From: Amycolatopsis solani
GTDB taxonomy: Bacteria; Actinomycetota; Actinomycetes; Mycobacteriales; Pseudonocardiaceae
Assembly: GCF_033441515.1 (NCBI RefSeq)
Contig: NZ_JAWQJT010000001.1
Span: forward strand, 2,356,001 to 2,420,000
Direction of reading: 5' to 3'
DNA: 64,000 bases
Shown here piece by piece: positions 23,988-42,648 of the stretch. A program made the position numbers and the translations under genes. The notes below the pieces were generated by a model, which saw only the letters and a list, made by a program, of their open reading frames with translations, made no database searches and was not told the origin of the DNA. Numbering within the stretch: the first letter of the stretch is position 1; each line of letters begins with the position of its first letter.

Positions 23988-24092
23988 CCGAGGTCGACCC
24001 GCTCCCGGGCACTGCCGCAGCGCGTGCCGGGGAGCGGGTGCCCGAACCCTTCCACCGCGCTGGTGGAGTCCGAGAATTCCTGGGGGAATCCG

Positions 24093-27000: not shown

Positions 27001-28697
27001 GGGCGCTGCCGGAGCCGGACTTCGCCCCGGAGCGCTACCGCCCGCCGCGGACCGGACAGGAAGAGCTGCTGGCCGGCGTGTTCGCCGAGGTGCTGGGCCT
27101 CGAGCGGGTGGGGATCGACGACAACTTCTTCGAGCTCGGCGGCGACAGCATCGCGTCCATGCAGGTGGTTTCGCGGGTGAAGGCGCTCGGGCTGGCGATC
27201 ACGCCGCGCCAGCTGTTCGAGCACCGCAGCATCGCGAGCCTGTTCGAAGCGCTGCCCGCGGACGCCGGTCGCGGCGACTGGACGGCGCCGGACGAGCCGG
27301 ACGCCCGGGAGCCGATCCCGCTGCTGCCCGCGGCCCGGTCGCTGCTGGAGTCCGGGCCGCACCCGGGGTTCGCGCAGTGGATGACGTTCGAACTGCCCGC
27401 CCGGACCGACGAGAAGGTCTTCCACGACACCGTTTCCGCGCTGGTCGACCGGCACGAGCTGCTTCGTTCCCGGCTGGTCGTCAAGGGCAGCCAGGAGAGG
27501 TGGGGCCTGCTGCCCGTCGGCGCGGACGACCTGCCGCTGACCCGGCTCGTCCACCGCGTGACCGGCTCCGGGCGGTGGGACGCCGAACTCGCGGCCGCGC
27601 TCGGGCGCCTCGACCCGGAAGCCGGCGTCATGGTCCAGTTCGTGTGGTTCACCTCGGTGGACGGCGAACCGGACCGGCTCCTGGTCATCGCCCACCACCT
27701 GCTGATCGACGGCGCCTCCTGGCAGATCCTCGCCGAAGACCTCGGGACCGTGTCGGCCCAGGTGGCGCGCGGGGTGCGGCCGAGTGCCGTCCCTTCGGGG
27801 ACGTCGATGCGCCGGTGGGCCACGGCGCTGGAGGCCGAAGCGCACAGCGCCTCGCGCACCGCCGAGCTGCCGGACTGGGTCGGGATCCTCAGCGGCCCGG
27901 ACCCGCTGTTCGGCGCGCACCGGCCGGACCCGGAGAAGGACCTCTGCGGCGGCGAATCCATGCTGACGGTCGAGGTCCCCGTGCCGGTGACCAAGGCGGT
28001 GGCCAAGGCCTTGCCGAAGGCGCTGGGCGGCGGGCTCACCGACGGCCTGCTGGCGGCACTGGTGCTGGCCGTGGCGCGGTACCGCCGCGCCCGCGGTGAC
28101 CACCCCGGCTCGCTCCTGGTCCAGCTCACCGGGCACGGGCGCGAGGAGGAGCTGGTGCCCGGTGCCGACCTTTCGCAGACGGTGGGCTGGTTCGCCAAGG
28201 CCTACCCGGCGCGCGTGGACATCGCCGGGATCGACCTCGACGAGGCACTGGCCGGCGGGCCCGCGGCGGGCGAGGTCGTCCGCGCGGTCGGGCGCCAGTT
28301 GCGCGCCGTGCCCGGCGGGGGGATCGGCTACGGCCTGCTGCGGTACTTCAACGACGACACCGCGGCGGAGCTGAAGAAGTACGACGGCCCGCAGTTCGGC
28401 TTCAACTACATGGGCCGGTTCTCCGCCGGTGGCCAGTCCGAAAAGGACAGTGGCGGCGCGTGGCGGGCGGTGCCGGGCAGCCTCGGCGCGCAGCGGGACC
28501 CGGACATGCCGGTGCCGCTCGCCGTGGACGTCAACGCGCTGATCGTGCAGTCGGGTGCCGGGCCGGTGCTGAAGGGGCTGTTCACGTTCCACGAAAACAT
28601 CGTCGACCAATCCGTTGTCGAAGAATTGATGCGGATGTGGGTCGAAGAACTGACGATGCTCGCGCAGTTCGCGGCAAAAGTCCCGGCTGTTTCCTGA
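24093..28697 (+). CDS. Non-ribosomal peptide synthetase, C-A-T-E
   Basis: 1534 residues: condensation domain (1-430, HHIAGDG at 130), adenylation (~450-945, TSGSTG at ~628), carrier (Ser1019 in GGDS), and epimerase (~1050-1530) with [10 protein letters not shown] (1201), TGHGREE and FNYMGR, all motifs intact. The carrier has the GGDSI form that goes with epimerases. The pocket code is DAYFWGGTFK, identical to A1 of the other synthetase, so the same residue type is expected, here turned to D. No thioesterase follows; an E-terminal protein usually passes its chain to another synthetase. ATG 24093 follows CTGGGGGA; an in-frame ATG at 24024 lacks a ribosome site. Confidence 0.95.
25968..26416 (+). 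repeat. Duplicated adenylation-domain core, copy in second NRPS
   Basis: Partner of the segment at 17812-18260 (offset 8156 bases). The copy differs at scattered single bases but keeps all substrate-pocket residues; the one visible change near the pocket is Ala for Val in the WxGGEE motif. Confidence 0.75.
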
Positions 28698-28731: not shown

Positions 28732-29967
28732 ATGCCGGTGACGACTTTGTTCCGCAATGCCGCCGTGCTGGACGCCGAGCGCGGCGAACTGGACGGCGAC
28801 CGGTCCGTACTGGTGGTCGGCGACCGGATCGCCGAAGTCGGCGCGGCGAACGAAGTGCGGCCGCCGAGCCCTGACCGCGTCGTCGACCTGCGCGGGCGCA
28901 CGCTGATGCCCGGCCTGGTCGACGCGCACGTGCACGTCTACGTGCAGAGCATGGACCTGTCCCAAGTGGAGTCGTGGCTGCCGTCCTACCTGGTGCCGAA
29001 GGCGGCCAAGGCATTGGGCGAGATGCTGCGGCGCGGGTTCACCACCGTCCGCGACGTCGGGGGCGCGGACTTCGCGCTCGCCCAGTCGATCGAGGAGGGC
29101 CTGGTCGCCGGGCCGCGGCTGATCCACGGCGGCCCGGCGCTGTCGCAGACCGGCGGGCACGGCGACTTCCGGTCACGGGGCGACTTCGGCACCCACGGCT
29201 GCCTGCGCTGCCCGACCATCTTCCGGCTCGCCGACGGCACGGACGAGGTGCGCCGGGTCGTGCGGGACGTGCTGCGCGGCGGGGCGCACCACATCAAGCT
29301 CATGCTGTCCGGCGGAGTGCTTTCGCCGACCGACAGCATCACGTCGGTGCAGTACACCGCCGAGGAGATCGCCGTGGCGGTGCGCGAGGCGGGTGCCGCC
29401 GGGAAGTACGTCACCGGCCACACCTTCCTGGCCGGCGCCATCAACTCCGCGCTGCGCCAGGGTGTCCGGTGCGTCGAGCACGGCAACTTCATCGACGACA
29501 CCTCGGTCGAGCTGTTCATCGAGCACGACGCCTTCCTCGTGCCGACCCTGACCATCGTGCGCGCCATCCAGGAACTCGGGCCGGCCATGGGCCTGTCCGG
29601 CGAGGTCCTCGCCAAGAGCGCCGAAGTCTTCGACGCCGGGATGACGGCCCTGGAGCGCGCGCACCGCGGCGGGGTGAACCTCGTCTACGGCACCGATCTC
29701 CTGGGCGATCTGCAGACGCGTCAGCTGGAAGAGCTGACGCTGCGCGCGGAGGTCCAGCCCCCGGCCGACCTCATCCGCTCGGCCACGACCACCCCCGCGC
29801 GGCTGCTCGGCATGGCGGGCGAAATCGGCGTCGTCGCGCCGGGGGCGTACGCCGACCTCCTCGTCGTCGACGGCGACCCGCTGGCCGGCATCTCCGTCCT
29901 CACCGCACCCGAACGGCATCTGAACCTCGTCATGAAGGCCGGAACCGTCTACTACGACACCATGTGA
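28732..29967 (+). CDS. Metal-dependent amidohydrolase (imidazolonepropionase/Xaa-Pro dipeptidase-like)
   Basis: 411 residues with all amidohydrolase landmarks: DAHVHV (HxH) at ~61, HIKLMLSGG carrying the likely carboxylated Lys at ~185, GHTF and EHGN His ligands, and YGTDLLG with the catalytic Asp near 323. This subfamily contains enzymes that hydrolyse N-acyl or dipeptide bonds. It has no signal peptide. It lies 34 bases after the NRPS and shares the CTGGGGGA ribosome-site motif, so it is in the operon and may release, trim or inactivate the peptide. The substrate cannot be told from sequence. Confidence 0.85.
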   Translation: MPVTTLFRNAAVLDAERGELDGDRSVLVVGDRIAEVGAANEVRPPSPDRVVDLRGRTLMPGLVDAHVHVYVQSMDLSQVESWLPSYLVPKAAKALGEMLRRGFTTVRDVGGADFALAQSIEEGLVAGPRLIHGGPALSQTGGHGDFRSRGDFGTHGCLRCPTIFRLADGTDEVRRVVRDVLRGGAHHIKLMLSGGVLSPTDSITSVQYTAEEIAVAVREAGAAGKYVTGHTFLAGAINSALRQGVRCVEHGNFIDDTSVELFIEHDAFLVPTLTIVRAIQELGPAMGLSGEVLAKSAEVFDAGMTALERAHRGGVNLVYGTDLLGDLQTRQLEELTLRAEVQPPADLIRSATTTPARLLGMAGEIGVVAPGAYADLLVVDGDPLAGISVLTAPERHLNLVMKAGTVYYDTM

Positions 29968-30008: not shown

Positions 30009-31238
30009 ATGCCACCAACTGTCCGGAAGACCGTCTTCTTGTTGTTCGCCGCTTACGCCGTCGACCTGATCGACCGGCTCGCGATCGGGAACGCCCTGCC
30101 GCAGATCGGCGCCGACCTCCACCTCGACCACGCGCAGCGCGGGCTGGCGGTGTCGGTGTTCTTCGTGGCCTACGCACTGGTCCAGATTCCCGGCGGGCTG
30201 CTCGCGGACCGGTTCGGCGCGGTCCGGATGTGCGTCTTCGCGATGCTCGCGTGGTCGGTGTGCACCGGGCTGACCGCCGTGGCCTGGTCGTTCGCCGCGT
30301 TGCTCGCGACCAGGGCGGCGTTCGGCGTGATGCAGGGCATGTTCCCCGCGGCGTCGGTGAAAGCGCTCTCCGAGCGCACGCTGCCGGAGCAGCGCAACAC
30401 CGCCAACGGCTGGGTCAACGCGTCGAGCTCGTTCGCGATCCTGGGGGCAGGCCTGCTCGCCGCGGCGATGCTGCCCGCCATCGGCTGGCGCGGGATGTTC
30501 CTCGCCATTTCCGGCCTCGGCGTCCTGGTGGCGCTGGCGTGGAAGTGGTGGCTGCCGCCCGCGTTGCCGGAGCCGGAAACGGCCGGCCTCGGCCCCACGC
30601 CGTCGCGGTGGGCGTTCGTCCGGTCGCCCGCGATCATCGGCTGCGCCACGCTTTCGTTCGGGTTCAACCTGCTGGCCTGGGGCGTCACCACGTGGGTGCC
30701 GAGCTACCTGACCGAGGAGCGCGGGGTGCCGGTCGGAACCGCGGCCCTGCTGATGACCCTGCCGACGGTGCTGGGCGCGGGCACCATCATCCTCGGTGGC
30801 CGGCTGGCCGACCGCCTCGGTGGCCGGCCACGGGTGGTCGTCGTGCCCGCCATGGCCGTCGTCGGCGTGCTCGAGCTCCTGCTGCCGATGGCGGGCTCGG
30901 TGACCTGGTTCATGGTCGTGCTGACGTTGCTGTACTCGACGCTCGGGTTGTGCCTCACGTCGTCGTTCTCGGTTCCCTTGCGCGCCTTGCCGACCCGGTG
31001 GCTCGGGCTCGTGGCGGGCCTGGTGATGTCCGGCAGCCAGCTGGCGGGAATGGTGGCCCCGTACGCGTTCGGCTTCGTCGTCGACCACGCGTCCTACCGC
31101 GCCGGGTTCGCCATGCTGGCGGTCGGCCCGGTGATCGCCATTGTCGCCTCGATTCTGGTGCCGCAGAACGCCGAAGCATTCCGGGCGGCGATCCGCCGTC
31201 GAATTGGGACGACCTTGACTGCCCGCAGCGGGGCGTGA
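30009..31238 (+). CDS. MFS transporter (ACS-like, 12 helices)
   Basis: 409 residues with about 12 membrane helices. Motif A appears as GGLLADRFGAVRM after helix 2 and again as GGRLADRLGGRP in the second half. The opening LLFAAYAVDLIDRLAIGNALPQI and the GWVNASSSFAILGAG segment are typical of the anion:cation symporter group. It could take up a precursor or export the product; direction is not known. AAGGA precedes ATG 30009; the long upstream open frame lies inside the amidohydrolase and is ignored. Confidence 0.88.
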   Translation: MPPTVRKTVFLLFAAYAVDLIDRLAIGNALPQIGADLHLDHAQRGLAVSVFFVAYALVQIPGGLLADRFGAVRMCVFAMLAWSVCTGLTAVAWSFAALLATRAAFGVMQGMFPAASVKALSERTLPEQRNTANGWVNASSSFAILGAGLLAAAMLPAIGWRGMFLAISGLGVLVALAWKWWLPPALPEPETAGLGPTPSRWAFVRSPAIIGCATLSFGFNLLAWGVTTWVPSYLTEERGVPVGTAALLMTLPTVLGAGTIILGGRLADRLGGRPRVVVVPAMAVVGVLELLLPMAGSVTWFMVVLTLLYSTLGLCLTSSFSVPLRALPTRWLGLVAGLVMSGSQLAGMVAPYAFGFVVDHASYRAGFAMLAVGPVIAIVASILVPQNAEAFRAAIRRRIGTTLTARSGA

Positions 31239-31391: not shown

Positions 31392-31613
31392 ATGAGTGGC
31401 AATCCGTTCGACGACGAGAACGGCCGGTTCTACGTCCTGACCAACGACGAGGGGCAGCACTCGTTGTGGCCCGCGTTCGTCCCCGTGCCGAGCGGCTGGC
31501 AGGTCGTGTTCGGGGAGAACGGCCACGCGGAGTGCGTGGCGTACGTGGAAGAGAACTGGACGGACATGCGGCCCGAGAGCCTGCGGCTGGCGATGGAGGG
31601 CGGGGTGCGCTGA
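31392..31613 (+). CDS. MbtH-family protein
   Basis: 73 residues, the normal size. It shows the family signature: SGNPFDDENGRFYVLTNDEGQHSLWPAFVPVPSGW and NWTDMRPESL with the conserved Trp residues. MbtH proteins bind adenylation domains in the cytoplasm and are often needed for their folding or activity, so this one should serve the NRPSs at 16003 and 24093. Its stop overlaps the start of the next gene (TGATG). Confidence 0.96.
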   Translation: MSGNPFDDENGRFYVLTNDEGQHSLWPAFVPVPSGWQVVFGENGHAECVAYVEENWTDMRPESLRLAMEGGVR

Positions 31614-32680
31614 TGGAGTTCGGACTGTTCTACTTCGCCAACGCGGACGATCACCGGCAGGGGTACGAATTGCTGCTGGCCGGGGCGCGGTTCGCCGACC
31701 GGAACGGGTTTTCCGCGGTGTGGACCCCGGAGCGGCACTTCCACGAGTTCGGGGGCATCTACCCGAACCCGGCGGTGACCGGGGCGGCGATCGCCGCGGT
31801 CACCGAGCACGTCGCGATCCGGGCCGGCAGCGTGGTCGCGCCGCTGCACAACCCGATCCGGATCGCCGAAGAGTGGTCGGTCGTCGACAACCTGTCCGGC
31901 GGGCGCGCCGGGATCGCGTTCGCTTCCGGCTGGCACGCGGGGGACTTCGTGTTCAGCCCCGGCCGCTACCACGACCGCCGCACGGACAACGTCGCCGCGC
32001 TGGGGCAGGTGCGCCGGTTGTGGCGCGGCGAGTCCGTGACGGTGCCCGACGGGGTCGGCAACCCGGTCGAGATCCGCACCCTGCCGCGGCCGGTGCAGGC
32101 GGAACTGCCGGTCTGGCTGACCACGAGCGGCAGCATCGAGTCGTTCGAGTCCGCCGGCCGGCTCGGCGTGAACGTCCTGACGCACCTGCTGGGCCAGGAG
32201 CTCGCGGACATCGAACAGAAGGTCAAGGCGTACCACGCCGCCTGGCACGACGCCGGGCACGCCGGGCGCGGGCACGTCAGCCTGATGGTCCACACCTACC
32301 TCGGCGCGGACCGGGCCGAGGTGAAGGAAGTCGTGCGCGAGCCGTTCAGCCAGTACCTGCTGAGCTCGTTCGACCTGATCGCGCGCGCGGTCGGGCGCAC
32401 GGGCTCGGCGGGGATGGCGAGCGACATCGCCGCGCTCACCGAAGCGGATCGGCGGTTCCTCATCGACGCCGCGTTCGACCGGTACTTCCTCACCAACGGC
32501 CTCTTCGGCAGCGTCGAAGACGGGGTGGAGATCTGCGGCGACCTGGCGGAAGCGGGCGTCGACGAGCTCGCCTGCCTCATCGACTTCGGCGTCGACAGCG
32601 AACTGGTCCTCAACGGACTCGACCGGCTCGGCGAACTCCGCCGGGCGTGGGCGCGGAAGGTACCCGCGACGGCGAACTGA
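31613..32680 (+). CDS. Luciferase-like flavin monooxygenase, natural-product (MupA) type
   Basis: 355 residues, an LLM-class TIM barrel. The pattern EFGLFYFANADD, VWTPERHFHEFGG, HNPIRIAEEWSVVDNLSGGRAGIAFASGW and YHDRRTDNV is the TIGR04020 (MupA/Atu3671) form found with NRPS and PKS genes. Such enzymes use reduced FMN and O2 to oxidise a free or carrier-bound substrate. A flavin reductase follows 20 bases later, a sensible FMNH2 source. It is coupled to mbtH. Its position suggests tailoring or precursor hydroxylation, for example of an aryl acid; the reaction is not shown by sequence. Confidence 0.87.
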   Translation: MEFGLFYFANADDHRQGYELLLAGARFADRNGFSAVWTPERHFHEFGGIYPNPAVTGAAIAAVTEHVAIRAGSVVAPLHNPIRIAEEWSVVDNLSGGRAGIAFASGWHAGDFVFSPGRYHDRRTDNVAALGQVRRLWRGESVTVPDGVGNPVEIRTLPRPVQAELPVWLTTSGSIESFESAGRLGVNVLTHLLGQELADIEQKVKAYHAAWHDAGHAGRGHVSLMVHTYLGADRAEVKEVVREPFSQYLLSSFDLIARAVGRTGSAGMASDIAALTEADRRFLIDAAFDRYFLTNGLFGSVEDGVEICGDLAEAGVDELACLIDFGVDSELVLNGLDRLGELRRAWARKVPATAN

Positions 32681-32700
32681 ACTGCCTTGGGGGAAAAGTG

Positions 32701-33252
32701 ATGTCAGATCCGGTGGCGGTCGACCCCGTGTCGGCGGCCGAAGACTTCCGCCTGGCCATGCGGTTCCACGCGGCAGGCGTCGCGATCGTCACGGTGGATT
32801 CCGACCGCGGGACCGCGGGTTTCACGGTCAGCTCGCTGGCGTCGCTGTCGCTGCGGCCGCCGGCGGTGTCGTTCAACATCGCGCACCGTTCCTCGAGCAT
32901 GCCGGTGCTGCGGGCGTCGGACACCGCGGTGATCCACCTGCTCTCGACCGGGCAGGAGGAGCTGGCTCGCCGGTTCGCCGGTCCCGCGGACGAGCGCTTC
33001 GCCGACCCGGCGCTCTGGCACCGGCCGTCCGGCCGCGCGCCGGTGCTGCACGACGTCCCGGTCCGCTTCCACGTCAGGCTGGTGGACCGGATCCCGATCG
33101 GTGACCACAGCGTCGTGGTCTGCGCCGTCGAGCAGGTTTTCGCGGATCGCGCGCACCTGACGGCGTCCCGCCCGCTCGTCTACCGCGACGGGTGTTATCA
33201 GGAGGTCTCGCCGCTGGTGCGGCGGAACCCCGGCCCGAACCGAACTTTGTGA
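32701..33252 (+). CDS. Flavin reductase (HpaC-like)
   Basis: 183 residues of the Flavin_Reduct family: FHAAGVAIVTVDSDRGTAGFTVSSLASLSLRPPAVSFNI is the classic FMN-binding segment, and RFHVRLVDRIPIGDHSVVVCAVE the second strand set. It reduces FMN with NAD(P)H and hands it to a monooxygenase. Lying between two luciferase-like monooxygenase genes (31613 and 36216), it is probably their shared partner. ATG 32701 follows TTGGGGGA, the motif shared with the NRPS genes. Confidence 0.9.
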   Translation: MSDPVAVDPVSAAEDFRLAMRFHAAGVAIVTVDSDRGTAGFTVSSLASLSLRPPAVSFNIAHRSSSMPVLRASDTAVIHLLSTGQEELARRFAGPADERFADPALWHRPSGRAPVLHDVPVRFHVRLVDRIPIGDHSVVVCAVEQVFADRAHLTASRPLVYRDGCYQEVSPLVRRNPGPNRTL

Positions 33253-33260
33253 GGAAGTGC

Positions 33261-34949
33261 ATGGACAGCATGGAAAACCGGGTTTCCGCTGGTACGCCCA
33301 CCTGGCCGGACCGGCTCGCGGCGGAGTACGCCGCCGCGGGCCACTGGCGGGGGAAGACGTTCGGAACCCTGATGTGGGAGTGGGCCGACGACCGCGGTGA
33401 CGACACCGCCGTGGTCGACGGCACGGTCACGCTGACCTACCTCGACCTGGCCGTGCAGGCCGACGCCCTCGCCGAGAAGCTGCTCGAGACCGGGCTGGCG
33501 CGGGGCGACAAGATCGTCGTGCAGCTGCCCAACTGCTGGCAGTTCGTGGTGCTGTTCTTCGCCTGCGCGCGGATCGGCGTCGTGCCGATCATGACGCTGA
33601 TGCCGCACCGGGACCACGAGCTGGTGCACATCGCGCGCCACGGGGGGGCGACGGCGCTGGCCACCCCGTCGACCTGGCGTGGGTACGAGCACGAGCAGCT
33701 CGCGCACCGGGTCGGCGAAGCCGTACCCGCGGTGCGCACGCTCCTGGTCGTCCGCGAGGACGGTGCGCCCGGGACGCCCTCGGACGGCTGCCTCGACCTG
33801 ACGGCGATGTGCACCCCGGCGGGGGACGCCGACGTGCGCCGGAAGAAGCTCGATGAAAGCGCTGTCCGCAGCCGGGACGTCGTCACGTTCCTGCTTTCCG
33901 GTGGTACTACGGGATTGCCGAAGCTGATCGGGCGCACGCACGACGACTACGAGTACAACGCGCGGCGCAGCGCGGAGGTCTGCGGGTTCACCGCCAAGAC
34001 CGTGTACCTGGCCACGATGTCGGCGTCGCACAACTTCTCCCTCGCCTGCCCCGGCCTGCTCGGCACCTTCGCCGTGGGCGGGACCGCGGTCCTGATCCCG
34101 ACCCCGAGCCCGCAGAACGCGTTCGCGGCGATCGAACGGGAACGCGTCACCGTGACGGCGCTGGCGCCGTCGGTGGCGAAGCACTGGATGGACACGCTCG
34201 CGGCCGAACCCGGCCGGTTCGACCTGAGCAGCCTGGAGACGCTGCAGATCGGGTCGGCGCGGCTGGCGACGGAACTGGCCAAGCGGGTGCAGCCGATCTT
34301 CGGCTGCCGGCTGCAGCAGGTGTACGGGATGGCCGAAGGCCTGCTCTGCTACACCCGGCTCGACGACCCCGACGAGGTGGTGGACGCCACCCAGGGCCGC
34401 CCGATGAGCCCGGCCGACGAGATCCGCGTCGTCGACTCGAACGGGAACCCGGTACCCCACGGGGAAATGGGGCTGCTGGAGACCCGGGGGCCGTACACGA
34501 TCCGCGGGTACTACGACGCCCGCGAAGTGAACGCGCAGTCGTTCACGCCGGACGGCTGGTTCCGCACCGGCGACATCGTGCGCGTGCACGAGTCGGGCAA
34601 CCTCATGATCGAAGGCCGTTCGCGCGACATCATCAACCGGGCGGGCGAGAAGATCTCGGCGGAAGAGGTGGAAAACCACCTGTACCTGCTGGCCGCCGTC
34701 CAGCACGCGGCGGTGATCGCCGTGCCGGACGAGCGGACCGGCGAACGGATCTGCGCCTGCGTGGTCCTGCACCCCGGGACCGAGCTGGACCTGTCCGACG
34801 TCCGCGCGATCTTCGCCGAGATCGGCGTCGCGCAGTACAAGATCCCGGCCCAGCTGGAAATCCTGGACGCGCTGCCGCTGACGCCGGCCAGGAAGATCGA
34901 CAAGAAGGGTCTCCGCGAGCGCTTTTCCGAGCAGGTGAAGGCAGGATGA
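33261..34949 (+). CDS. Aryl-acid AMP ligase (EntE/DhbE/MbtA type)
   Basis: 562 residues, similar to EntE end to end: LSGGTTGLPKLIGRTHDDYEYN (AMP loop), YGMAEGLLCYTRLDD, TRGPYTIRGYY, GRSRDIINRAGEKISAEEVE and the C-terminal catalytic Lys (LTPARKIDKKGL). Pocket residues: N258 (the DhbE Asn235 equivalent) and F259, Cys263 in place of DhbE Ser240, and Leu362 in place of DhbE Val337. Cys and Leu at these two places mark salicylate-type rather than 2,3-dihydroxybenzoate enzymes, so the substrate is a mono-hydroxy aryl acid such as salicylate or 3-hydroxypicolinate. No salicylate synthase is in the window. It should load an aryl carrier protein, but none was found. Confidence 0.93.
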   Translation: MDSMENRVSAGTPTWPDRLAAEYAAAGHWRGKTFGTLMWEWADDRGDDTAVVDGTVTLTYLDLAVQADALAEKLLETGLARGDKIVVQLPNCWQFVVLFFACARIGVVPIMTLMPHRDHELVHIARHGGATALATPSTWRGYEHEQLAHRVGEAVPAVRTLLVVREDGAPGTPSDGCLDLTAMCTPAGDADVRRKKLDESAVRSRDVVTFLLSGGTTGLPKLIGRTHDDYEYNARRSAEVCGFTAKTVYLATMSASHNFSLACPGLLGTFAVGGTAVLIPTPSPQNAFAAIERERVTVTALAPSVAKHWMDTLAAEPGRFDLSSLETLQIGSARLATELAKRVQPIFGCRLQQVYGMAEGLLCYTRLDDPDEVVDATQGRPMSPADEIRVVDSNGNPVPHGEMGLLETRGPYTIRGYYDAREVNAQSFTPDGWFRTGDIVRVHESGNLMIEGRSRDIINRAGEKISAEEVENHLYLLAAVQHAAVIAVPDERTGERICACVVLHPGTELDLSDVRAIFAEIGVAQYKIPAQLEILDALPLTPARKIDKKGLRERFSEQVKAG

Positions 34950-36184
34950 CGATGTCGCCCTACATCGTGCCCGCGGCACGCAGAGGAAGCATTCTCGGTG
35001 GCGAGGAGCTGACCGCGCTCGCCGAGCTGATCGATTCCGGCGAGATCCTTTCGCAGGGGCGCCACCGGGCGCTGTTCGAGCAGCGCTTCCGCGACCGGAT
35101 CGGCTCGCGGTACGCCTTCTCGGTGACCAGCGGGACGGTCGCGCTCGACCTGGCGATCCACCTGCTCGGCCTGAGCCGCGGCGACGAGGTCATCGTCACC
35201 CCGCAGACGTACCGCGCGATGGCCCAGCCGCTGCTCGACCTCGATGTCAACGTCCGGTTCTGCGACATCGACCCGGACACGCTGAACATGGACCCGGAAG
35301 CCCTGCGGGCGATGATCAGCGAACGCACCCGCGCGGTGATCGTGGTGCACTACGGCGGGGCACCGGCCGCCATGCGCGAGATCGTCCGGATCGCGCACGA
35401 CCACGGCAGCCTCGTGCTCGAAGACTGCGCGCACGCGCTGGGCGCGAGCTACCACGGCGAGCACCCCGGCGCGCTGGCCGACATCGGGTGCTTCAGCTTC
35501 CACTCGCTCAAGAACATCACGACGCTCGGCGAAGGCGGCATGATCACCTTCGCCCGCGACGACTGGGCCGAGCGGCTGAACCAGATCCGGTCCAACCGGG
35601 TCGACGGATCGGTGCGGCCGAGCTGGGAGTACAGCCTGCCCGGCGGTTCGCTGCTGCCGTGGATGCGGGACGCCGACGACGTCTACACGTCGGACTACCT
35701 CCGCATCCTGCGCGCCGGCACGAACGCGACCCTGTCCGAGCCCGCGGCGGTCGTCGGCAGCGTCCAGCTGGACCGGCTCGACGGCCTGCTGGAGCGGCGG
35801 CGCTCGATCGCGGCGGCCCTCGACGAGGTGATCGGCCTCAGCCCGGCGGCCCGGCCCCAGAGCCTTTCGGTGGACACCGAGCACGCGTACCACCTGTACA
35901 CGTTCATGGTGGCGGACGGCGCGGAGGCCCGGGAACGCCTGATCCGCTCGCTCGACCGGCAGGGCGTGCAGATCGAGCTCCGCTACTTCCCGTTGCACCT
36001 GCTGCCCGAGTGGCGGTGGCGCGGGCACGGGCCGGGCGAGTGCCCGGTCGCCGAGCGGTCCTGGTTCGGCGCGCAGGTCAACCTGCCCTGCTACCCCTCG
36101 CTGAGCGACGGGCAGGTCGAGCACATGACCCAGGCGCTGGCCACCGCCTTCGCCGAGACAGCCGGCGCGCTGACGGCCCGCTGA
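34946..36184 (+). CDS. DegT/DnrJ/EryC1-family PLP aminotransferase
   Basis: 412 residues with the fold-I aminotransferase pattern of DegT proteins: SVTSGTVALDLAIHLLGLSRGDEVIVTPQTY, EDCAHALGA (the PLP Asp) and SFHSLKNITTLGEGG with the Schiff-base Lys189. Best-known members make amino sugars or AHBA, but no sugar pathway lies near. From memory, lysine 2-aminotransferases of the nikkomycin and virginiamycin S pathways are in or near this class, which fits the aryl ligase and NikD-like neighbours. The start overlaps the ligase stop (ATGA), so the two are coupled. The amino acceptor is not proven. Confidence 0.88.
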   Translation: MTMSPYIVPAARRGSILGGEELTALAELIDSGEILSQGRHRALFEQRFRDRIGSRYAFSVTSGTVALDLAIHLLGLSRGDEVIVTPQTYRAMAQPLLDLDVNVRFCDIDPDTLNMDPEALRAMISERTRAVIVVHYGGAPAAMREIVRIAHDHGSLVLEDCAHALGASYHGEHPGALADIGCFSFHSLKNITTLGEGGMITFARDDWAERLNQIRSNRVDGSVRPSWEYSLPGGSLLPWMRDADDVYTSDYLRILRAGTNATLSEPAAVVGSVQLDRLDGLLERRRSIAAALDEVIGLSPAARPQSLSVDTEHAYHLYTFMVADGAEARERLIRSLDRQGVQIELRYFPLHLLPEWRWRGHGPGECPVAERSWFGAQVNLPCYPSLSDGQVEHMTQALATAFAETAGALTAR

Positions 36185-36215
36185 CCAAGCTCCGACCGAT
36201 TTTCGAGAGGTTGTC

Positions 36216-37289
36216 GTGGAATTCGGAATCAACTTCTTCCCCGTCGTGGACCCGGAGAGCAAGGGCGCGGCGCAGTACTACGAGGAAAGCCTTCGCCTCG
36301 TCGAAGCGGCCGAGGCCGCCGGGTTCGCCCACGTCCAGACGGTCGAGCACTACTGCTCGCCCTACGGCGGCTACAGCCCGGACCCGGTGCTCTTCCTGAC
36401 CGCCGCGGCCATGCGGACGAGCCGGATCCGCCTGATCACCGGTGCGGTGATCGCGGCCTTCGAGCACCCGGTGAAACTGGCGTCCCGGCTCGCCGTGCTG
36501 GACAACCTGTCCCGCGGGCGCCTGGACGTCGGGTTCGGCCGCGGGTTCCTGCCGCGCGAGTTCGACTTGTTCGGGTTCTCGATGGACGAAAGCCGGGCCC
36601 GGTTCCAGGAAGGCATCGAGGCGTGCCGCCGGCTGTGGAGCGAGACCGACGTGGTGTGGGACGGGAAGTTCCACAGCTTCGGTCCGGTCACGCTGTCGCC
36701 GCGCCCGTATTCGGCGCCGCACCCACGCATCTACGTCGCTTCGGCGTCCACACCGGACTCGTGCGCCGCGGCCGGCCGTGAAGGCTACGGCATCCAGGTC
36801 GTCCCGTCGGTCGTGTCGGTGGACCGGCTGCAGGAGATGGTGCGGCGCTACCGCGACGCGTGGGCCGAGGCCGGGCACGCCGAGCCCGCGCCGCGGGTGC
36901 AGATCAAGTACACCTGCTACGTCGCGGACGACCGCGAGACCGCGATGACGGTGGCGGACACCTGGGAGCGCAACTACATCGCGATGATGGCGCGCGAGGT
37001 CGCCGCGCTGGCGGAGGTCAGGAGCGCCGACTACCCGGGGTACGAGACCTTCGCGGACAAGGTGAAGAAGTACAGCCTCGGCAAGGCGCTGGCGGACAAC
37101 AAGGTGCTCGTCGGCACGCCCGCCGAAGTGACGGCCCAGCTGGAGACGATCGGCGAGTGGTTCGGCCGGGACATCTGCGTCAGCCTGCAGTTCAACCCCG
37201 GTGCGATGCCGGAAGCGCAGTCCCGGCGGTCGTTCGAGCTGTTCGCCGAGGGCGTCATGCCGAAGTTCGCCGAAGCCGCGGGGGAATGA
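36216..37289 (+). CDS. Luciferase-like flavin-dependent oxidoreductase
   Basis: 357 residues, an LLM-class TIM barrel (EFGINFFPVV, VQTVEHYCSPYGGYSPDP, FEHPVKLASRLAVLDNLSRGRLDVGFGRGFLPREFD). It is only distantly like the enzyme at 31613, closer to generic FMN-dependent LLM monooxygenases. GAGAGG precedes GTG 36216. Situated between the aminotransferase and the tautomerase/NikD-like pair, it may hydroxylate the aryl precursor, using FMNH2 from the reductase at 32701. F420 use cannot be excluded. Confidence 0.85.
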   Translation: MEFGINFFPVVDPESKGAAQYYEESLRLVEAAEAAGFAHVQTVEHYCSPYGGYSPDPVLFLTAAAMRTSRIRLITGAVIAAFEHPVKLASRLAVLDNLSRGRLDVGFGRGFLPREFDLFGFSMDESRARFQEGIEACRRLWSETDVVWDGKFHSFGPVTLSPRPYSAPHPRIYVASASTPDSCAAAGREGYGIQVVPSVVSVDRLQEMVRRYRDAWAEAGHAEPAPRVQIKYTCYVADDRETAMTVADTWERNYIAMMAREVAALAEVRSADYPGYETFADKVKKYSLGKALADNKVLVGTPAEVTAQLETIGEWFGRDICVSLQFNPGAMPEAQSRRSFELFAEGVMPKFAEAAGE

Positions 37290-37291
37290 CG

Positions 37292-37477
37292 ATGCCGTAC
37301 ATCAACGTCAAGATCTACGAGCACCGGCTCGACGCCGAAACCGAGCCCGCCCTGATCGAACGCCTCACCGAAGCCGTCGTCGCGGTCTACGGGGAGGAGA
37401 TCCGGCCGACGACGTGGATCACGCTGGACCCCGTGCCGCCGCACCGCTGGGGGATCGGCGGTCGGCAGGGTGGCTGA
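37292..37477 (+). CDS. 4-oxalocrotonate tautomerase-like enzyme
   Basis: 61 residues starting MPYINVKIYE, so Met removal leaves the catalytic Pro1 of the 4-OT superfamily; the family end motif HRWGIGG is also present. Enzymes of this type shift keto/enol or imine/enamine double bonds. ATG 37292 is preferred over ATG 37286 because the latter would add two residues before Pro1; GGGGGA lies eight bases upstream. It overlaps the oxidase gene by eight bases, suggesting it tautomerises that oxidase's substrate or product, an unusual pairing. Confidence 0.9.
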   Translation: MPYINVKIYEHRLDAETEPALIERLTEAVVAVYGEEIRPTTWITLDPVPPHRWGIGGRQGG

Positions 37478-38633
37478 GCACGACCGGACCGCCGAGGTCG
37501 TCGTCGTCGGGCTGGGGGTGGTCGGCGCGGCCACGCTGTGGCGGCTGGCCGCCCGCGGCGTCGACGTCGTCGGCGTGGAACAGTTCACGGTCGGGCACCC
37601 GTGGGGGTCCTCGCACGGCTCGACCCGGATGTTCCGGACGACCTGCCTCGAGCACCCGGGTCTCGTCCCGCTGGCGCGGTTGTCCCGCCGGCTGTGGCGG
37701 GAGCTGGAATCGGAAGCGGGCCGGCCGTTGCTGGACGAGACGGGCGGGCTGCTGATCGGCCCGCCCGGCTGCCACCTGGTCGCCGGCACGCTGGAGGCGG
37801 CGCGGGTCCACGACGTGGCGGTCGAAGTGCTGGCCGCGCCGGCCATCGAGCGCCGCTTCCCGGAGCACGGCGGTGTACCGGCGGACCACATCGCGGTCCT
37901 GGATTCCACCGCCGGGGTGCTCCGCGCCGAGGACGCCGTCCGCGCCGCCGCCGGTGCGGCCGAGCGAGCCGGTGCCGAGGTGCGGACCGGAGCCGCGGTG
38001 ACCGGCATCGAGCTGGTCGACGGGGGTGTGGTCGTCACGACCGGTACCGGGACGATCCGCGCCCGGCAAGCCGTCGTGACGGCCGGACCGTGGCTGCCGC
38101 GGCTCGTCCCGGGGCTGCCGCTGACCGTGGTGCGGACCCCGATGACGTGGTTCCGGCCCGTCGGCGGCGCCGGCCGGTTCGGCGCCCGGGAGTTCCCCAT
38201 CTTCCTGCGTGACCTGGGCGGGGCGGGCATCGTGTACGGCCACGGCACCCGGGACGGCGGCTTGGTCAAGTTCGCGCTCGAGTACGACGACGACGCCGCG
38301 GTGTTCCGGGAAACGTCGGCAAGCGACTGCGACCGGCGGATCGCGGAGCAGGACTGGAAGCGGATCGAAGCCATCGCGCGCTGGGCGGCACCGGGGCTGG
38401 CGCTCGAGCCCGCCGAAACGACCGTGTGCATGTACACGCTGACCCCCGACCGCCAGTTCCTCGTCGGACGGCCGCACGGCGACCCGCGGCTGGTGCTCGG
38501 CGGCGGGGACAGCGGGCACGCGTTCAAGCACGCACCCGGGCTGGGCGAGGTGCTCGCGGACACCGTCCTCGGCCGGCCACCGGCGGTGGCGCTGGACTTC
38601 GCCGACCCCGACCGATTCCACGGAGCGTTCTGA
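37470..38633 (+). CDS. Covalent-FAD amine oxidase (sarcosine oxidase/NikD-like)
   Basis: 387 residues of the MSOX/MTOX family. The dinucleotide motif is GLGVVGAA, followed by SSHGSTRMFR near the flavin. LVKFALEYD carries the Lys at the O2-activating place, Cys320 (VCMYTLTPD) is at the site of covalent FAD attachment (Cys315 in MSOX, Cys321 in NikD), and GHAFKHAPGLGE closes the fold. Members oxidise secondary amines; NikD turns piperideine-2-carboxylate into picolinate. Beside an aryl-AMP ligase and an aminotransferase, a picolinate-type role is the best guess, though general sequence is as close to N-methylamino-acid and pipecolate oxidases. Confidence 0.88.
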   Translation: MAEHDRTAEVVVVGLGVVGAATLWRLAARGVDVVGVEQFTVGHPWGSSHGSTRMFRTTCLEHPGLVPLARLSRRLWRELESEAGRPLLDETGGLLIGPPGCHLVAGTLEAARVHDVAVEVLAAPAIERRFPEHGGVPADHIAVLDSTAGVLRAEDAVRAAAGAAERAGAEVRTGAAVTGIELVDGGVVVTTGTGTIRARQAVVTAGPWLPRLVPGLPLTVVRTPMTWFRPVGGAGRFGAREFPIFLRDLGGAGIVYGHGTRDGGLVKFALEYDDDAAVFRETSASDCDRRIAEQDWKRIEAIARWAAPGLALEPAETTVCMYTLTPDRQFLVGRPHGDPRLVLGGGDSGHAFKHAPGLGEVLADTVLGRPPAVALDFADPDRFHGAF

Positions 38634-38640
38634 GGCGGGC

Positions 38641-40329
38641 ATGACCGACGAAAACCACTGGACCATCGAAGAAACCCTGCCGGTGACCCCCGGGGTCCTC
38701 GCGGAGCTGTACGCCCAGGTCCTCGGGCTCGACGACGTCGGGACCGACGACAGCTTCTTCGACCTCGGCGGGGACGACGTGTCGTCGCTGCAGCTGGTCA
38801 GGCGCGCCCGGGCGGTCGGCGTGCTGATCCAGCCGGACGACGTGGCCTGGCACGAGACCCCGGCCGAGCTGGCGCCGGTCGCCCGCCAGGGCGGGGCCTC
38901 GGCCGACCCGCTCGACGACGTCGGGGTGGGTGCGGTCGCCGTCACCCCGATCATCGAGGCGTTCCACGCCCACGGCGGGCTGGTCGACCGGTTCTTCCAG
39001 GCCATGCTGATCGCCACGCCGGCCGGGCTGGACCTGGCCGGGGTGTCCAGGCTGCTGCAGGCGGTGGTCGACCACCACGACGTGCTCCGCCTGCGCGTGG
39101 CGTCCGGCGGCGACGGCGGCCTGGCGCTGACGGTGCGGCCGGTCGGCTCCGTTCCGGTGGCGCGGTACCTCGAGCACGTCGACTGCCGCGGGCTTTCCGG
39201 CGAACAGGCCGAGGCCACGATCGCGGCCGGATACGAAGCCGCCGGTGACCGGCTCGGGCTCACCGCGGACTCGCTGCTGCAGCCGGTCTGGTTCGACCAC
39301 GGGCCGGACCGGCCGGGAACGCTGCTGGTGCTGATCCACCACGTCGTGGTCGACGGCGTGTCGTGGCGGATCCTGCTGCAGGACCTCGCGGCGGGCTGGG
39401 CCGCGATCAGCGCCGGCGAACCGATCGGCCTGCCGGCCACCGGGACGTCGTTCCGGCGCTGGTCCCTGCTGCTGGCCGCGCAGGCCCACGCCCCGGCGCG
39501 GGCGGCGGAACTGCCGGTGTGGCAAGGGATCCTGGCGCCGGCCGAGCCGCTGGTGTGCGGGGACCTCGACCCGGAGAAGGACATCTACGCCACCGCCGCC
39601 AAGGTCTCGAAGCGCCTGCCGGTGGCGCAGACCGTCCCGCTGCTGGGGACGGTCCCGTCGGCGCTCGGCGCCGGGATCCAGGACGTGCTGCTGGCCGCGT
39701 TCGCGTTCGCGGCGGCGCGGTGGGCGCGTGCGCGCGGGCGGGCGGCCGGACCCCTCGTGGTCGACGTCGAAGGGCACGGGCGCGACGAATCCGTGGCGCC
39801 GGGTGTCGACCTGTCCCGCACGCTGGGCTGGTTCACCAGCATGTACCCGGTCCGCCTCGACCCGGACGCGGTGGCTTGGGACGATCTGCTCGCGGGTGGG
39901 GCCGCGGCCCGCCGGGGCGTCGAGCGGATCAAGGAAAACCTGCGTGCCGTCCCCGGCGGCCTCGGGTTCGGACTGCTGCGCCACCTCAACGCGCGGACGC
40001 GCGCGCGGCTGGAGCCGGCGGTCCGGCCGGACGCCGGGTTCAACTACCTGGGCCGGGTGGCCTCCTCCACCGGCGACAGCCCGTGGACCCCGCGGCCCGG
40101 GCCTGGGGAAGGCGGCGGTTTCCTCGGCGGCGGCCAGGCCGACATGCCGCTGCTGCACGTGCTCGACCTCAACGCGATCACCTACGACACGGCCGACGGC
40201 CCGCAGCTGGTGGCGAACTGGACGTTCGCCGGACGGCACCTGACCGAGCACGAGGTCGGCGAGCTGGCGGACCTGTGGTTCGCCGCGCTGGCCGCGATCG
40301 CCACCGTCGCCGGGCACGGCCGAGGATGA
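38641..40329 (+). CDS. Stand-alone NRPS T-E protein with non-canonical carrier
   Basis: 562 residues: a carrier-like domain (~15-85) and an epimerase domain (~100-555). The epimerase motifs are intact: HHVVVDGVSW (His233), EGHGRDE, LGWFTSMYPV and FNYLGR. The carrier motif reads DLGGDDVSSLQ, so the phosphopantetheine Ser of GGDS is replaced by Asp46 (codon GAC 38776-38778). Unless a neighbouring Ser can be used, this carrier cannot hold a substrate, and the epimerase would have to act in trans on T domains of the other synthetases. It is preceded by seven bases after the oxidase and overlaps the next gene by four. Confidence 0.9.
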   Translation: MTDENHWTIEETLPVTPGVLAELYAQVLGLDDVGTDDSFFDLGGDDVSSLQLVRRARAVGVLIQPDDVAWHETPAELAPVARQGGASADPLDDVGVGAVAVTPIIEAFHAHGGLVDRFFQAMLIATPAGLDLAGVSRLLQAVVDHHDVLRLRVASGGDGGLALTVRPVGSVPVARYLEHVDCRGLSGEQAEATIAAGYEAAGDRLGLTADSLLQPVWFDHGPDRPGTLLVLIHHVVVDGVSWRILLQDLAAGWAAISAGEPIGLPATGTSFRRWSLLLAAQAHAPARAAELPVWQGILAPAEPLVCGDLDPEKDIYATAAKVSKRLPVAQTVPLLGTVPSALGAGIQDVLLAAFAFAAARWARARGRAAGPLVVDVEGHGRDESVAPGVDLSRTLGWFTSMYPVRLDPDAVAWDDLLAGGAAARRGVERIKENLRAVPGGLGFGLLRHLNARTRARLEPAVRPDAGFNYLGRVASSTGDSPWTPRPGPGEGGGFLGGGQADMPLLHVLDLNAITYDTADGPQLVANWTFAGRHLTEHEVGELADLWFAALAAIATVAGHGRG

Positions 40330-41804
40330 GCCCGACGCTCCTGCGCGGCGGCCGGGTGATCGACCCGGCCGGCGGGTTCGACGGCGTCACCGACGTCCTG
40401 CTGACCGGTGACCGGGTCACCGCGGTCGGCCCGCACCCGGCGCCGGAACCGGGGACCACGCTCGTCGACGTCGCCGGGCTGGTGGTCGGGCCGGGGTTCG
40501 TGGACCTGCACAGCCACGCGCAGTCGATCGCCGGGCTGCGGCTGCGGGCGATGGACGGGGTCACGACGGCTTTGGAGCTGGAGGCCGGGCTGATGCCGCT
40601 CGGGCGCGCGTACGCCGAGGCGGCCGCGGCCGGGCGGCCGGTGCACTACGGCTTCTCCGCTTCCTGGGGTGCGGCCCGGGCCCGCGTGCTCGCCGGCGTC
40701 GAGCCCGACGCGCGGGTCCAGACCACCATGGCGGCGCTGGGCGATCCGCGGTGGCAACGGTCTTCGTCCCCGCCGGAGCTGGCCGCCTGGCTGTCCCTTC
40801 TGGACGGCGAGCTGGCCGCCGGGGCACTGGGCATCGGCGTGCTGATGGGATACGCGCCCTACTCCGCGCCGCCGGAGTTCCTCGCCGTCGCGCGGCTCGC
40901 CGCGGCCGCCGGGGTGCCGGTCTATACACACGTGCGCGAGCTGGCCGAGGTCGATGCGGCCATCCCGGTCGACGGGGCGGCGGAGCTCGCGCTGGCCGCG
41001 GCGGAAACGGGCGCCGCGATGCACCACTGCCACGTCAACAGCACGTCCGGGCGGCACCTCGAGCGGGTGCTGCGCACCCTGGACGAGGCACGCCGGGAAG
41101 GCTCGCGGGTAACCGTGGAGGCGTACCCGTACGGCGCGGGCAGCACGGCGGTCGGGGCCGCGTTCCTCGACCCGGAACGATTGCGGCTCAAGGGGCTCGG
41201 CCCGGCCAGCGTGGTCATGCTCGAATCCGGCGAACGCGTCGCGGACGAGGCCCGCCTGCGCGAGCTGCGGCGCGCCGACCCGGGCGCGGCGTGCGTCCTG
41301 GAGTTCCTGGACGAGCGGGTCGCCGCCGACCGGGCGCTGCTGCACGCGTCGCTGGCCTTCCCCGACGCCGTCGTCGCCAGCGACGCCATGCCGGTGACCT
41401 GGCCCGGCGGCGTGCGGGAGAGCACCGACTGGCCGTTGCCACCCGGCGGGTCCACCCACCCCCGCACCGCGGGGACGTTCGCCCGCGCGCTGCGGGTGAT
41501 GGTGCGCGAGACGGGCGCCTGGACGTGGCTGGAGGCCTTCCGCCGGTGTTCCCACCTGCCCGCGCGGATCCTCGACGACGTCGCGCCGGCGGCGCGGGGC
41601 AAGGGCTGGCTCGGTGCCGGCGCGGACGCCGACCTGGTGGTGCTCGACCCCGGCACGATCACCGACACCGCCACCCACGCCGATCCGACCCGGCCGTCGG
41701 CCGGGGTCCGGCACCTGTTCGTCGCCGGGGTCCCGGTGGTCGCGGACGGGGAGTTGCGCGCCGGCGCGCTGCCCGGGCGGGGAGTGCGAGGTGAGCCGCG
41801 ATGA
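40326..41804 (+). CDS. D-aminoacylase-type amidohydrolase
   Basis: 492 residues of the Amidohydro_3/D-aminoacylase group. Visible metal-site elements: VDLHSHAQS (HxH), TTALELEAGLMP (acidic ligand), HCHVNS, and SDAMP with the catalytic Asp. A composite beta domain at both ends includes GADADLVVLDPGTI. Typical members hydrolyse N-acyl-D-amino acids to the D-amino acid and a carboxylate. It is coupled to the T-E gene by ATGA, so it may process an N-acylated D-residue generated by epimerisation, as product maturation, editing or detoxification. It has no signal peptide. Confidence 0.82.
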   Translation: MSPTLLRGGRVIDPAGGFDGVTDVLLTGDRVTAVGPHPAPEPGTTLVDVAGLVVGPGFVDLHSHAQSIAGLRLRAMDGVTTALELEAGLMPLGRAYAEAAAAGRPVHYGFSASWGAARARVLAGVEPDARVQTTMAALGDPRWQRSSSPPELAAWLSLLDGELAAGALGIGVLMGYAPYSAPPEFLAVARLAAAAGVPVYTHVRELAEVDAAIPVDGAAELALAAAETGAAMHHCHVNSTSGRHLERVLRTLDEARREGSRVTVEAYPYGAGSTAVGAAFLDPERLRLKGLGPASVVMLESGERVADEARLRELRRADPGAACVLEFLDERVAADRALLHASLAFPDAVVASDAMPVTWPGGVRESTDWPLPPGGSTHPRTAGTFARALRVMVRETGAWTWLEAFRRCSHLPARILDDVAPAARGKGWLGAGADADLVVLDPGTITDTATHADPTRPSAGVRHLFVAGVPVVADGELRAGALPGRGVRGEPR

Positions 41805-41823
41805 CGGCGGAAAGGACGAGCCG

Positions 41824-42648
41824 ATGGCCGAACTGGTGACGGAGCCCCCGGAAGTGGCGGCGGCGGCCGCGGCCGGGGTGGTGGTCCGCGAACTGGCCGG
41901 CGTACCCGAGCTGACCGCCGTGTGCGCCCTCTTCCGGTCGATCTGGGGCGGCACGCTGGTCACCGCCGAGCTGCTGAAGGCGTTGGCGGCGGCCGGGAAC
42001 TACGTGGCCGGGGCGTTCGACGGGGATCGGCTGCTCGGCGGCTGCCTCGGGTTCTTCGGCCACCCGGCCAAGGGCAGCCTGCACAGCCACATCGCCGGGG
42101 TCGCCCGCGCCGGGTCCGGCCGGGGCGTCGGGTTCGCGCTCAAGCTGCACCAGCGCGCCTGGGCGCTGCGCGAGGGCGCCACCCGCGTCTCCTGGACGTT
42201 CGACCCGCTGGTGCGCCGCAACGCGCACTTCAACCTGGCCAAGCTGGCCGCCCGCCCGGTGCGCTACCTGCCCGACTTCTACGGCCCGATGGGCGACGCC
42301 ATCAACGGCTCCGGTGCCACGGACCGGCTGATGACCGTCTGGGACCTCACCAGCCCGGCGGTCGAAGCGGCGGTGCGCGGCCGGCTGTCCCTTGTGGACG
42401 ACGTGACCGGTGCGCCCGCGCTGTCCGTCGGCACGGACGGTGGCCCGGTGCCGGGCCCGGCCGACGCGCCGGTCGTACTGGTCGCGGTGCCACCCGACAT
42501 CGAGGCGGTGCGGGTGAGCGACCCCGGGCTGGGCCGCGTCTGGCGGATCGCGCTGCGGGAGGTGCTGCACGGCCTGATGACCGGCGGTGCCCGGGTCACC
42601 GGGTTCGACCGGGCCGGCCGGTACGTGGTGGCGAGGGAGTGGCCGTGA
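41824..42648 (+). CDS. COG3375 GNAT-like acyltransferase
   Basis: 274 residues. The pattern IWGGTLVTAELLKALAAAGNYVAGAF, LHSHIAGVARAGSGRGVGFALKLHQRAWAL and VSWTFDPLVRRNAHFNLAKLAARPVRYLPDFYG is that of COG3375 predicted acetyltransferases. In Geobacillus a member beside an N-succinylamino-acid racemase is a succinyl-CoA:D-amino-acid N-succinyltransferase. Here too the next gene is a racemase of that family, but broken, and a D-aminoacylase-type gene lies upstream. ATG 41824 follows AAAGGA; GTG 41791 is an alternative. Confidence 0.85.
   Translation: MAELVTEPPEVAAAAAAGVVVRELAGVPELTAVCALFRSIWGGTLVTAELLKALAAAGNYVAGAFDGDRLLGGCLGFFGHPAKGSLHSHIAGVARAGSGRGVGFALKLHQRAWALREGATRVSWTFDPLVRRNAHFNLAKLAARPVRYLPDFYGPMGDAINGSGATDRLMTVWDLTSPAVEAAVRGRLSLVDDVTGAPALSVGTDGGPVPGPADAPVVLVAVPPDIEAVRVSDPGLGRVWRIALREVLHGLMTGGARVTGFDRAGRYVVAREWP

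Follow-up and report, generated by a model that had tools for sequence, protein, structure and literature searches.

A probable lysine-to-3-hydroxypicolinate starter cassette in Amycolatopsis solani with a salicylate/2,3-dihydroxybenzoate-type ligase

Introduction

Which acid do the genes at 31613-38633 of a 64-kb stretch of the 10.28-Mb Amycolatopsis solani genome (the window, meaning the whole stretch of DNA analysed) make, and what is it for? An aryl-AMP ligase is coupled there with an aminotransferase, two luciferase-like monooxygenases (LLM1 and LLM2), a flavin reductase, a tautomerase and an FAD-dependent oxidase, a run that a preliminary description, drawn from the sequence alone, had taken for a possibly new cassette supplying a mono-hydroxylated pyridine or benzene acid to a nonribosomal peptide synthetase (NRPS). 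The run most likely makes 3-hydroxypicolinic acid (3-HPA) from L-lysine, and the acid would be activated to start a short nonribosomal peptide. 3-HPA stands at the head of virginiamycin S, pristinamycin I, viridogrisein and pyridomycin, and an excerpt of PMC11481915, citing Yun 2019, gives its requirements as a lysine 2-aminotransferase, an FAD dehydrogenase, and a flavin mononucleotide (FMN) monooxygenase with an FMN reductase. The cassette is a known kind of 3-HPA set, already familiar from 3-HPA clusters, so that the pathway is not new in the sense first suggested; the variant is its apparently displaced and converged ligase.

Results

The gene run

Every gene named in the preliminary description is present and had been placed correctly, and the cassette is tightly coupled on one strand (+):

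31613..32680, +, LLM1, an FMN monooxygenase of the MupA/Atu3671 family (TIGR04020, 476 bits, cut-off 244)
32701..33252, +, flavin reductase (PF01613; RutF/HpaC-type scores below their cut-offs)
33261..34949, +, aryl-AMP ligase with Ser332 (DhbE 307) and Cys363 (DhbE 338), the proposed 3-HPA-AMP ligase (tree, pocket alignment)
34946..36184, +, DegT-class lysine 2-aminotransferase of the VisA family (homologue identities, tree)
36216..37289, +, LLM2, a luciferase-like monooxygenase, the proposed C3 hydroxylase (locus co-occurrence, tree)
37292..37477, +, tautomerase like 4-oxalocrotonate tautomerase (4-OT), with Pro1, Arg11 and Arg37, the proposed imine-enamine tautomerase (family match, locus comparison)
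37470..38633, +, FAD-dependent dehydrogenase/oxidase of the 3-HPA type with a CMYT motif as in MSOX (PF01266, tree)

With the start codons that we picked, on which all such distances depend, the ligase and aminotransferase genes share 4 bp, LLM2 and the tautomerase are 2 bp apart, and the tautomerase and oxidase genes share 8 bp. At the edges of the cassette, the gene for an MbtH-like protein shares 1 bp with that of LLM1, and a carrier-epimerase (T*-E) gene begins after a gap of 7 bp behind the oxidase gene and shares 4 bp with a following amidohydrolase gene.

The lysine 2-aminotransferase and the loci that carry it

Outside its own cluster, the listed best matches of the aminotransferase are actinomycete DegT proteins at 55-63% identity, among them one named L-lysine 2-aminotransferase and a 419-aa protein of S. 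virginiae (59%). VisA of S. virginiae, proposed in an excerpt of PMC9854754 as the source of the 3-HPA precursor, also has 419 aa, and the match may be VisA itself. Solved DegT sugar aminotransferases score at most 164 bits, against 488-562 bits for the listed relatives, and in the aminotransferase tree the window lies inside a 74-row clade from which nine DegT outgroups stand apart (support 100). There a set of seven rows (support 87) unites the window protein, its counterpart in the same cluster of Amycolatopsis eburnea (locus L042), three 3-HPA-type loci, L084 and L097.

A genome scan with the aminotransferase alignment gave the best 80 of 437 relatives, of which the 71 with an identity of at least 45% were counted, the counts covering up to 10 kb on each side and less at contig ends. 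Homologues of LLM2 (identity at least 50%) were found at 31 of the 71 loci, of the tautomerase (at least 40%) at 42, and of the 3-HPA-type oxidase (at least 40%) at 26, with an oxidase of the NikD type (25-30%) at 19. The 3-HPA and NikD classes of loci were set by the LLM2 and oxidase thresholds, which makes the contrast between LLM2 and NikD partly circular; the tautomerase played no part in the classification. L084 (Micromonospora) and L097 (Actinopolymorpha) carry the aminotransferase and the 3-HPA-type oxidase with neither LLM2 nor tautomerase in the stretch covered, which at L084 is truncated by a contig end; they are possibly a third variant of lysine-derived acid.

Oxidase and monooxygenases

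The oxidase had been called MSOX/NikD-like, and the two halves of that name fare differently. Its CMYT motif, whose Cys we take to be the flavin-binding residue, aligns with the CMYT of MSOX, and it scores 221 bits to the sarcosine oxidase 7exs, against 94 bits to NikD. In a tree of 47 oxidases the window falls within the 3-HPA-type group, apart from two sarcosine oxidases (97), whereas the NikD-type oxidases form a single clade (100) with the window outside. To judge from these comparisons, the enzyme belongs with neither NikD nor the plain sarcosine oxidases, although it is closer to the latter, and a NikD-type assignment of the oxidase or the cassette is rejected by the tree.

It is accordingly very improbable that the cassette yields a non-hydroxylated picolinate by a NikD-type route, as clusters of the nikkomycin and caerulomycin type do. 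Such a route would suit the aminotransferase, whose family is common to the 19 NikD-type loci and is not cleanly apart from theirs in the tree; against it stand the place of the oxidase, the presence in the window of LLM2 and the tautomerase, which occur at 0 of the 19 NikD-type loci (for LLM2 partly by definition), and the ligases of those loci, which have Gly235 and Gly307 in 17/17.

Homologues of LLM2 with 53-65% identity occur at 30 of the 70 other lysine 2-aminotransferase loci, and with the PF01613 reductase in the run LLM2 would make up a two-component monooxygenase; the reductase is probably the FMNH2 donor of LLM2 (and of LLM1). Both monooxygenases had been counted as parts of the cassette. 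For LLM1 this is ruled out, as a homologue of at least 40% occurs at just 2 of the 71 loci, L042 (94%, the same cluster) and L112 (43%). The gene of LLM1, a member of the MupA/TIGR04020 family, adjoins the MbtH gene, and LLM1 probably tailors the peptide, outside the usual 3-HPA set.

The tautomerase

Although it served in no class definition, the tautomerase follows the 3-HPA loci closely, being present at 30 of the 31 LLM2 loci (the exception is L050) and 23 of the 26 with a 3-HPA-type oxidase. At 41 of 42 loci its gene comes immediately after that of the aminotransferase, in the same orientation; only in the A. eburnea copy of the window's cluster does LLM2 lie in between. In 43 sequences, that of the window included, Pro1 and Arg11 are each conserved in 43 and Arg37 in 41; we take these residues to be catalytic by analogy with 4-OT. 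Twelve loci, among them those whose aminotransferases are closest to the S. virginiae protein, have the tautomerase with no LLM2 or oxidase within reach. There is thus a strong case that the tautomerase is likely a general, so far unassigned member of the 3-HPA pathway.

In the open PubMed Central (PMC) literature, covered in part, we found no description of such a role, though this is weak evidence that none exists; the word 'tautomerase' occurs 0 times in the main text of the siderochelin paper (PMC11481915), and an excerpt of the pyridomycin paper (PMC12862043) uses tautomer wording for another unit. At four Pseudonocardia loci (L074, L075, L081, L111) the ligase, aminotransferase and tautomerase genes are consecutive and stand beside large carrier-domain proteins, presumably NRPSs, with no LLM2 or oxidase match within 10 kb.

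The aryl-AMP ligase

The pocket residues Cys263 and Leu362 of the ligase are as first described (their motifs start at 255 and 352). In a tree of 91 ligases, the 4 focal rows (the ligase of the window and its group) fall in a 33-row set with 29 salicylate/2,3-dihydroxybenzoate (DHB)-type ligases (Shimodaira-Hasegawa-like approximate likelihood ratio test, SH-aLRT, 99). The 38 3-HPA-type ligases lie in a different 41-row set (100), the 38 alone being held together by a support of only 64. Forcing the focal and 3-HPA-type ligases together lowers the log-likelihood by 121.6 (approximately unbiased (AU) test, p 9e-7, a nominal value as the constraint group was picked after the tree had been seen and the focal stem is long), and both tree and AU test therefore speak against orthology with the other 3-HPA-AMP ligases. 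The lineage owes its name to annotation and to pocket residues matching those of 5wm2, since no isochorismate synthase homologue was found in the 19 kb around five Amycolatopsis salicylate/DHB-type ligases (L122-L126); two solved reference ligases in the Protein Data Bank (PDB) fall in the 41-row set, outside the salicylate/DHB-type clade. Loci L050, L084, L098, L102, L103, L110 and L112 had no ligase match, and the comparison leaves out the rows of L063 (wrong open reading frame), L093 (a fragment) and L092, L094 and L099-L101 (below 38% identity).

The pocket tells a different story from the tree at one position. At DhbE 307 all focal (11/11) and all 3-HPA-type ligases (38/38) carry Ser, which occurs in 0/131 of the salicylate/DHB type (Gly in 124, Ala in 7), those 131 being near neighbours of the window ligase and no random sample (111 best listed of 7889 relatives, 18 Amycolatopsis ligases and 2 PDB chains); in the NikD-type ligases the residue is Ser in 0/17 and Gly in 17/17. 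The ligase of L097 has Gly307. At DhbE 338 the focal ligases have Cys, as do 9/38 of the 3-HPA type, 10/17 of the NikD type and 9/131 of the salicylate/DHB type. The focal ligase thus appears to combine a salicylate-like pocket with the 3-HPA serine, the latter gained separately if the tree is right, and probably, as far as alignments and trees can tell, a converged ligase of the salicylate lineage displaced the pathway's own. Ser332 perhaps contacts the ring nitrogen.

Supply of salicylate or DHB in the genome

These ligase results bear on a further alternative, namely that the acid activated by the ligase is salicylate, DHB or some other benzene acid, while the lysine genes serve to build a separate, later unit. 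Such an arrangement would account for the grouping with salicylate/DHB-type ligases and the rejected placement with those for 3-HPA, and the pocket has five residues, His234, Asn235, Phe236, Cys240 and Leu337, in common with the salicylate enzyme 5wm2. Against it count the serine at position 307, the score of 570.9 bits to the DHB-AMP ligase model, below the cut-off of 723.6, and the overlap of the ligase gene with that of the aminotransferase.

A source of such an acid would also have to be present, and the genome search for chorismate-binding enzymes, PchB and DhbA, in which isochorismatase was not included, gave no fitting candidate. The genome has four chorismate-binding enzymes, two anthranilate-synthase-like, one PabB and one isochorismate synthase, none of which is recognized as a salicylate synthase (84-195 bits against a cut-off of 325, the two anthranilate-synthase-like enzymes having been scanned against the models by domain only). 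Neither a PchB-type match, for which no control genome passed the cut-off either, nor a DhbA above its cut-off was found in the genome. The isochorismate synthase itself, which favours a benzene acid, has DhbC as its best model (416 bits, below the cut-off of 486), and we take it to serve menaquinone because MenD is also present. Taken together, these results make activation of a benzene acid unlikely. The preliminary description had stated that a salicylate or DHB synthase was lacking, which holds for the whole genome as far as tested. It had also held that a ligase that groups with salicylate or DHB enzymes and activates only those acids, with the matching synthase elsewhere in the genome, would speak against its interpretation; the grouping was found, but the matching synthase was not, and the pocket has the 3-HPA serine.

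The NRPS genes, the T*-E protein and the neighbouring genes

Upstream of the cassette and following it lie the remaining genes of the locus, the run continuing past 38633 with the last three:

16003..22362, +, NRPS 1, with a starter-type condensation (C) domain C1, adenylation (A) domain A1, carrier (T) domain T1, C2 (LCL), A2 and T2 (Pfam, C/T positions, PDB matches, C tree)
24024..28697, +, NRPS 2, with C3 (LCL), A3, T3 and the epimerase (E) domain E3 (Pfam, motifs, C tree)
28732..29967, +, amidohydrolase-family protein (PF01979)
30009..31238, +, MFS transporter (PF07690, 173 bits; start set by eye)
31392..31613, +, MbtH-like protein (PF03621, 94.6 bits)
38641..40329, +, T*-E didomain with the carrier Ser replaced by Asp and intact epimerase motifs (domain search, motif comparison)
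40326..41804, +, amidohydrolase, N-acyl-D-amino-acid deacylase-like by eye (NF006560, 628 bits, cut-off 340)
41824..42648, +, GNAT-like protein, weakly supported (PF00583, 16.3 bits, below the cut-off of 20.7; 86% A. eburnea homologue)

The best PDB matches of C1 are 7c1h, EntF, ObiF1 and the CDA synthetase, presumably all starter-type C domains, and C1 probably accepts an aryl starter. No match to a thioesterase domain was found with Pfam in the NRPS genes or the window proteins. The A-domain codes, read by eye against the PheA positions, were set aside. No named product of the cluster was found in the open PMC literature.

In the window, hmmsearch of frames of at least 60 codons finds T domains only in the two NRPS genes and in T*-E. 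The carrier serine of the latter is Asp in 7/7 of the window protein, its A. eburnea counterpart and P0241-P0245, whereas among the other relatives listed, all 103 whose motif could be read have Ser; 12 of the 120 relatives, including two partial sequences from the close family, P0246 and P0247, gave no carrier motif. The epimerase motifs HH and FNYLG are kept in 8/8 sequences checked, and EGHGR(D/E) in 7/8. From its motifs, T*-E is a conserved, apparently carrier-dead epimerase protein. C2 and C3 group in the tree with LCL domains of the same genome and not with the four DCL domains (labels assigned by the presence of a preceding E domain), an outcome that lends no support to T*-E acting in trans to epimerize residue 1 or 2.

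The gap of 7 bp between the oxidase and T*-E genes and the intact epimerase motifs invite the thought that the product is a chiral hydroxypiperidine acid, oxidised only in part and kept on the carrier, which would account for the adjoining epimerase domain. With the carrier serine lost in all seven relatives read, a complete 3-HPA pathway set present, and a ligase that belongs to an aryl family, we consider this highly unlikely.

Behind the cassette (40326-43016), the deacylase-like amidohydrolase and the weakly GNAT-like protein are joined by a gene of the MR/MLE fold, a trio that may resemble an N-succinyl-amino-acid racemase set. The MR/MLE gene is much shortened in the window (42645-43016, 123 aa), and A. 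eburnea has a longer open copy.

A. eburnea carries the same cluster, with 92-98% identity over the eleven proteins compared, and further close relatives of single cluster proteins occur in A. lexingtonensis, Amycolatopsis sp. V23-08 and JGI contigs. Among 80 Amycolatopsis genomes searched, A. solani included, one other has a 97% ligase, and 26 further genomes have ligase matches of only 45-54% (E 1e-150 or better); within the A. solani genome the next ligase scores 180 bits (31%), against 1283 bits for that of the window.

Discussion

Gene identity, family placement, co-conservation and the serine pattern were computed, and from them we infer every reaction of the scheme that follows, the order of hydroxylation and dehydrogenation, the substrate of the tautomerase and a contact between Ser332 and the ring. 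Lysine would lose its 2-amino group to the aminotransferase, and the resulting keto acid would cyclize to piperideine-2-carboxylate, of which the tautomerase would provide the enamine form with a nucleophilic C3. LLM2, supplied by the flavin reductase, would then hydroxylate C3, and dehydrogenation by the FAD enzyme would make the ring aromatic. The ligase, a salicylate/DHB-type enzyme that would have replaced the usual 3-HPA ortholog and independently gained the Ser at DhbE 307, perhaps for the ring nitrogen, would form 3-HPA-AMP, and NRPS 1 would receive the aryl group via its starter-type C1.

Several observations weigh against this scheme. The aminotransferase tree mixes 3-HPA and NikD-type loci (8 and 7 label changes), and the enzyme therefore speaks for lysine and not for 3-HPA. 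At DhbE 234, all focal ligases and 131/131 of the salicylate/DHB type have His, where 38/38 of the 3-HPA type have Phe, and the nearest non-focal relatives of the ligase (~60%), where named, are annotated as DHB or salicylate ligases. The presence of an isochorismate synthase belongs here as well. An aryl carrier with a phosphopantetheine serine was not found within the window, to which the search was limited, the only stand-alone T domain having Asp; short carrier genes located outside the window may serve instead. Finally, the four enzymes that an excerpt of PMC11481915 states as required for 3-HPA do not include the tautomerase.

Formation of 3-HPA from lysine nevertheless remains by far the most probable outcome, and of the pyridine or benzene acid first suggested, the lysine-derived pyridine is well supported by the aminotransferase, LLM2, the tautomerase and the oxidase. 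The observations of the preliminary description are confirmed, and its interpretation, right at the core, is partly supported.

It is a plausible, if tentative, joint proposal that a displaced ligase converged on Ser and that the tautomerase is a general 3-HPA enzyme presenting the enamine of piperideine-2-carboxylate to an LLM-type hydroxylase; read this way, the tautomerase would be absent from NikD cassettes because its task is to present the enamine to a luciferase-like hydroxylase. If so, it would fill a step left open by the four-enzyme account, and it could serve as a marker gene telling 3-HPA from picolinate cassettes. For the ligase, a Ser-to-Gly change at DhbE 307 should then move the preference from 3-HPA towards salicylate. 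A naturally converged enzyme would be a clean test of how salicylate and 3-HPA are discriminated, and useful for the prediction of starters from sequence.

Comparison with known systems

The closest comparisons are with two 3-HPA clusters whose identity we take from the species. An excerpt of PMC12862043 names D. fulvum as a pyridomycin producer, and locus L052 of D. fulvum NRRL B-16292, presumably the pyridomycin cluster, has the oxidase, LLM2, a free carrier protein, the ligase, the aminotransferase and the tautomerase. S. griseoviridis is a viridogrisein producer by a reference title in PMC11481915, and its loci L064 and L067, presumably the viridogrisein cluster, both have the ligase, LLM2, the aminotransferase and the tautomerase; an oxidase match was not found in the stretches of them that were read, L067 ending at a contig end. 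Like the window, these loci thus combine a lysine 2-aminotransferase, LLM2, the tautomerase and an aryl-AMP ligase, and L052 has an oxidase of the same group as well. Their ligases, however, belong to a different clade, their tautomerase gene comes straight after that of the aminotransferase whereas in the window LLM2 lies between the two, and L052 has a free carrier protein where the window has T*-E with its Asp.

Within the same genus, the siderochelin genes sidHIJ of Amycolatopsis WAC04611, which we compared by description, are also 3-HPA genes; according to an excerpt of PMC11481915, 3-HPA there feeds a polyketide synthase and no FMN reductase is recognised, in contrast to the NRPS and the flavin reductase of the run described here. 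The NikD cassettes for nikkomycin and other picolinate units (19 loci) have the aminotransferase family in common with the window but differ in their oxidase (25-30%, another clade) and in having neither LLM2, partly by definition, nor the tautomerase. As for the ligase, 5wm2 and DhbE (1md9) are of the same family as that of the window, and 5wm2 also has most of its pocket residues, yet both have Gly at position 307, where the window ligase has Ser.

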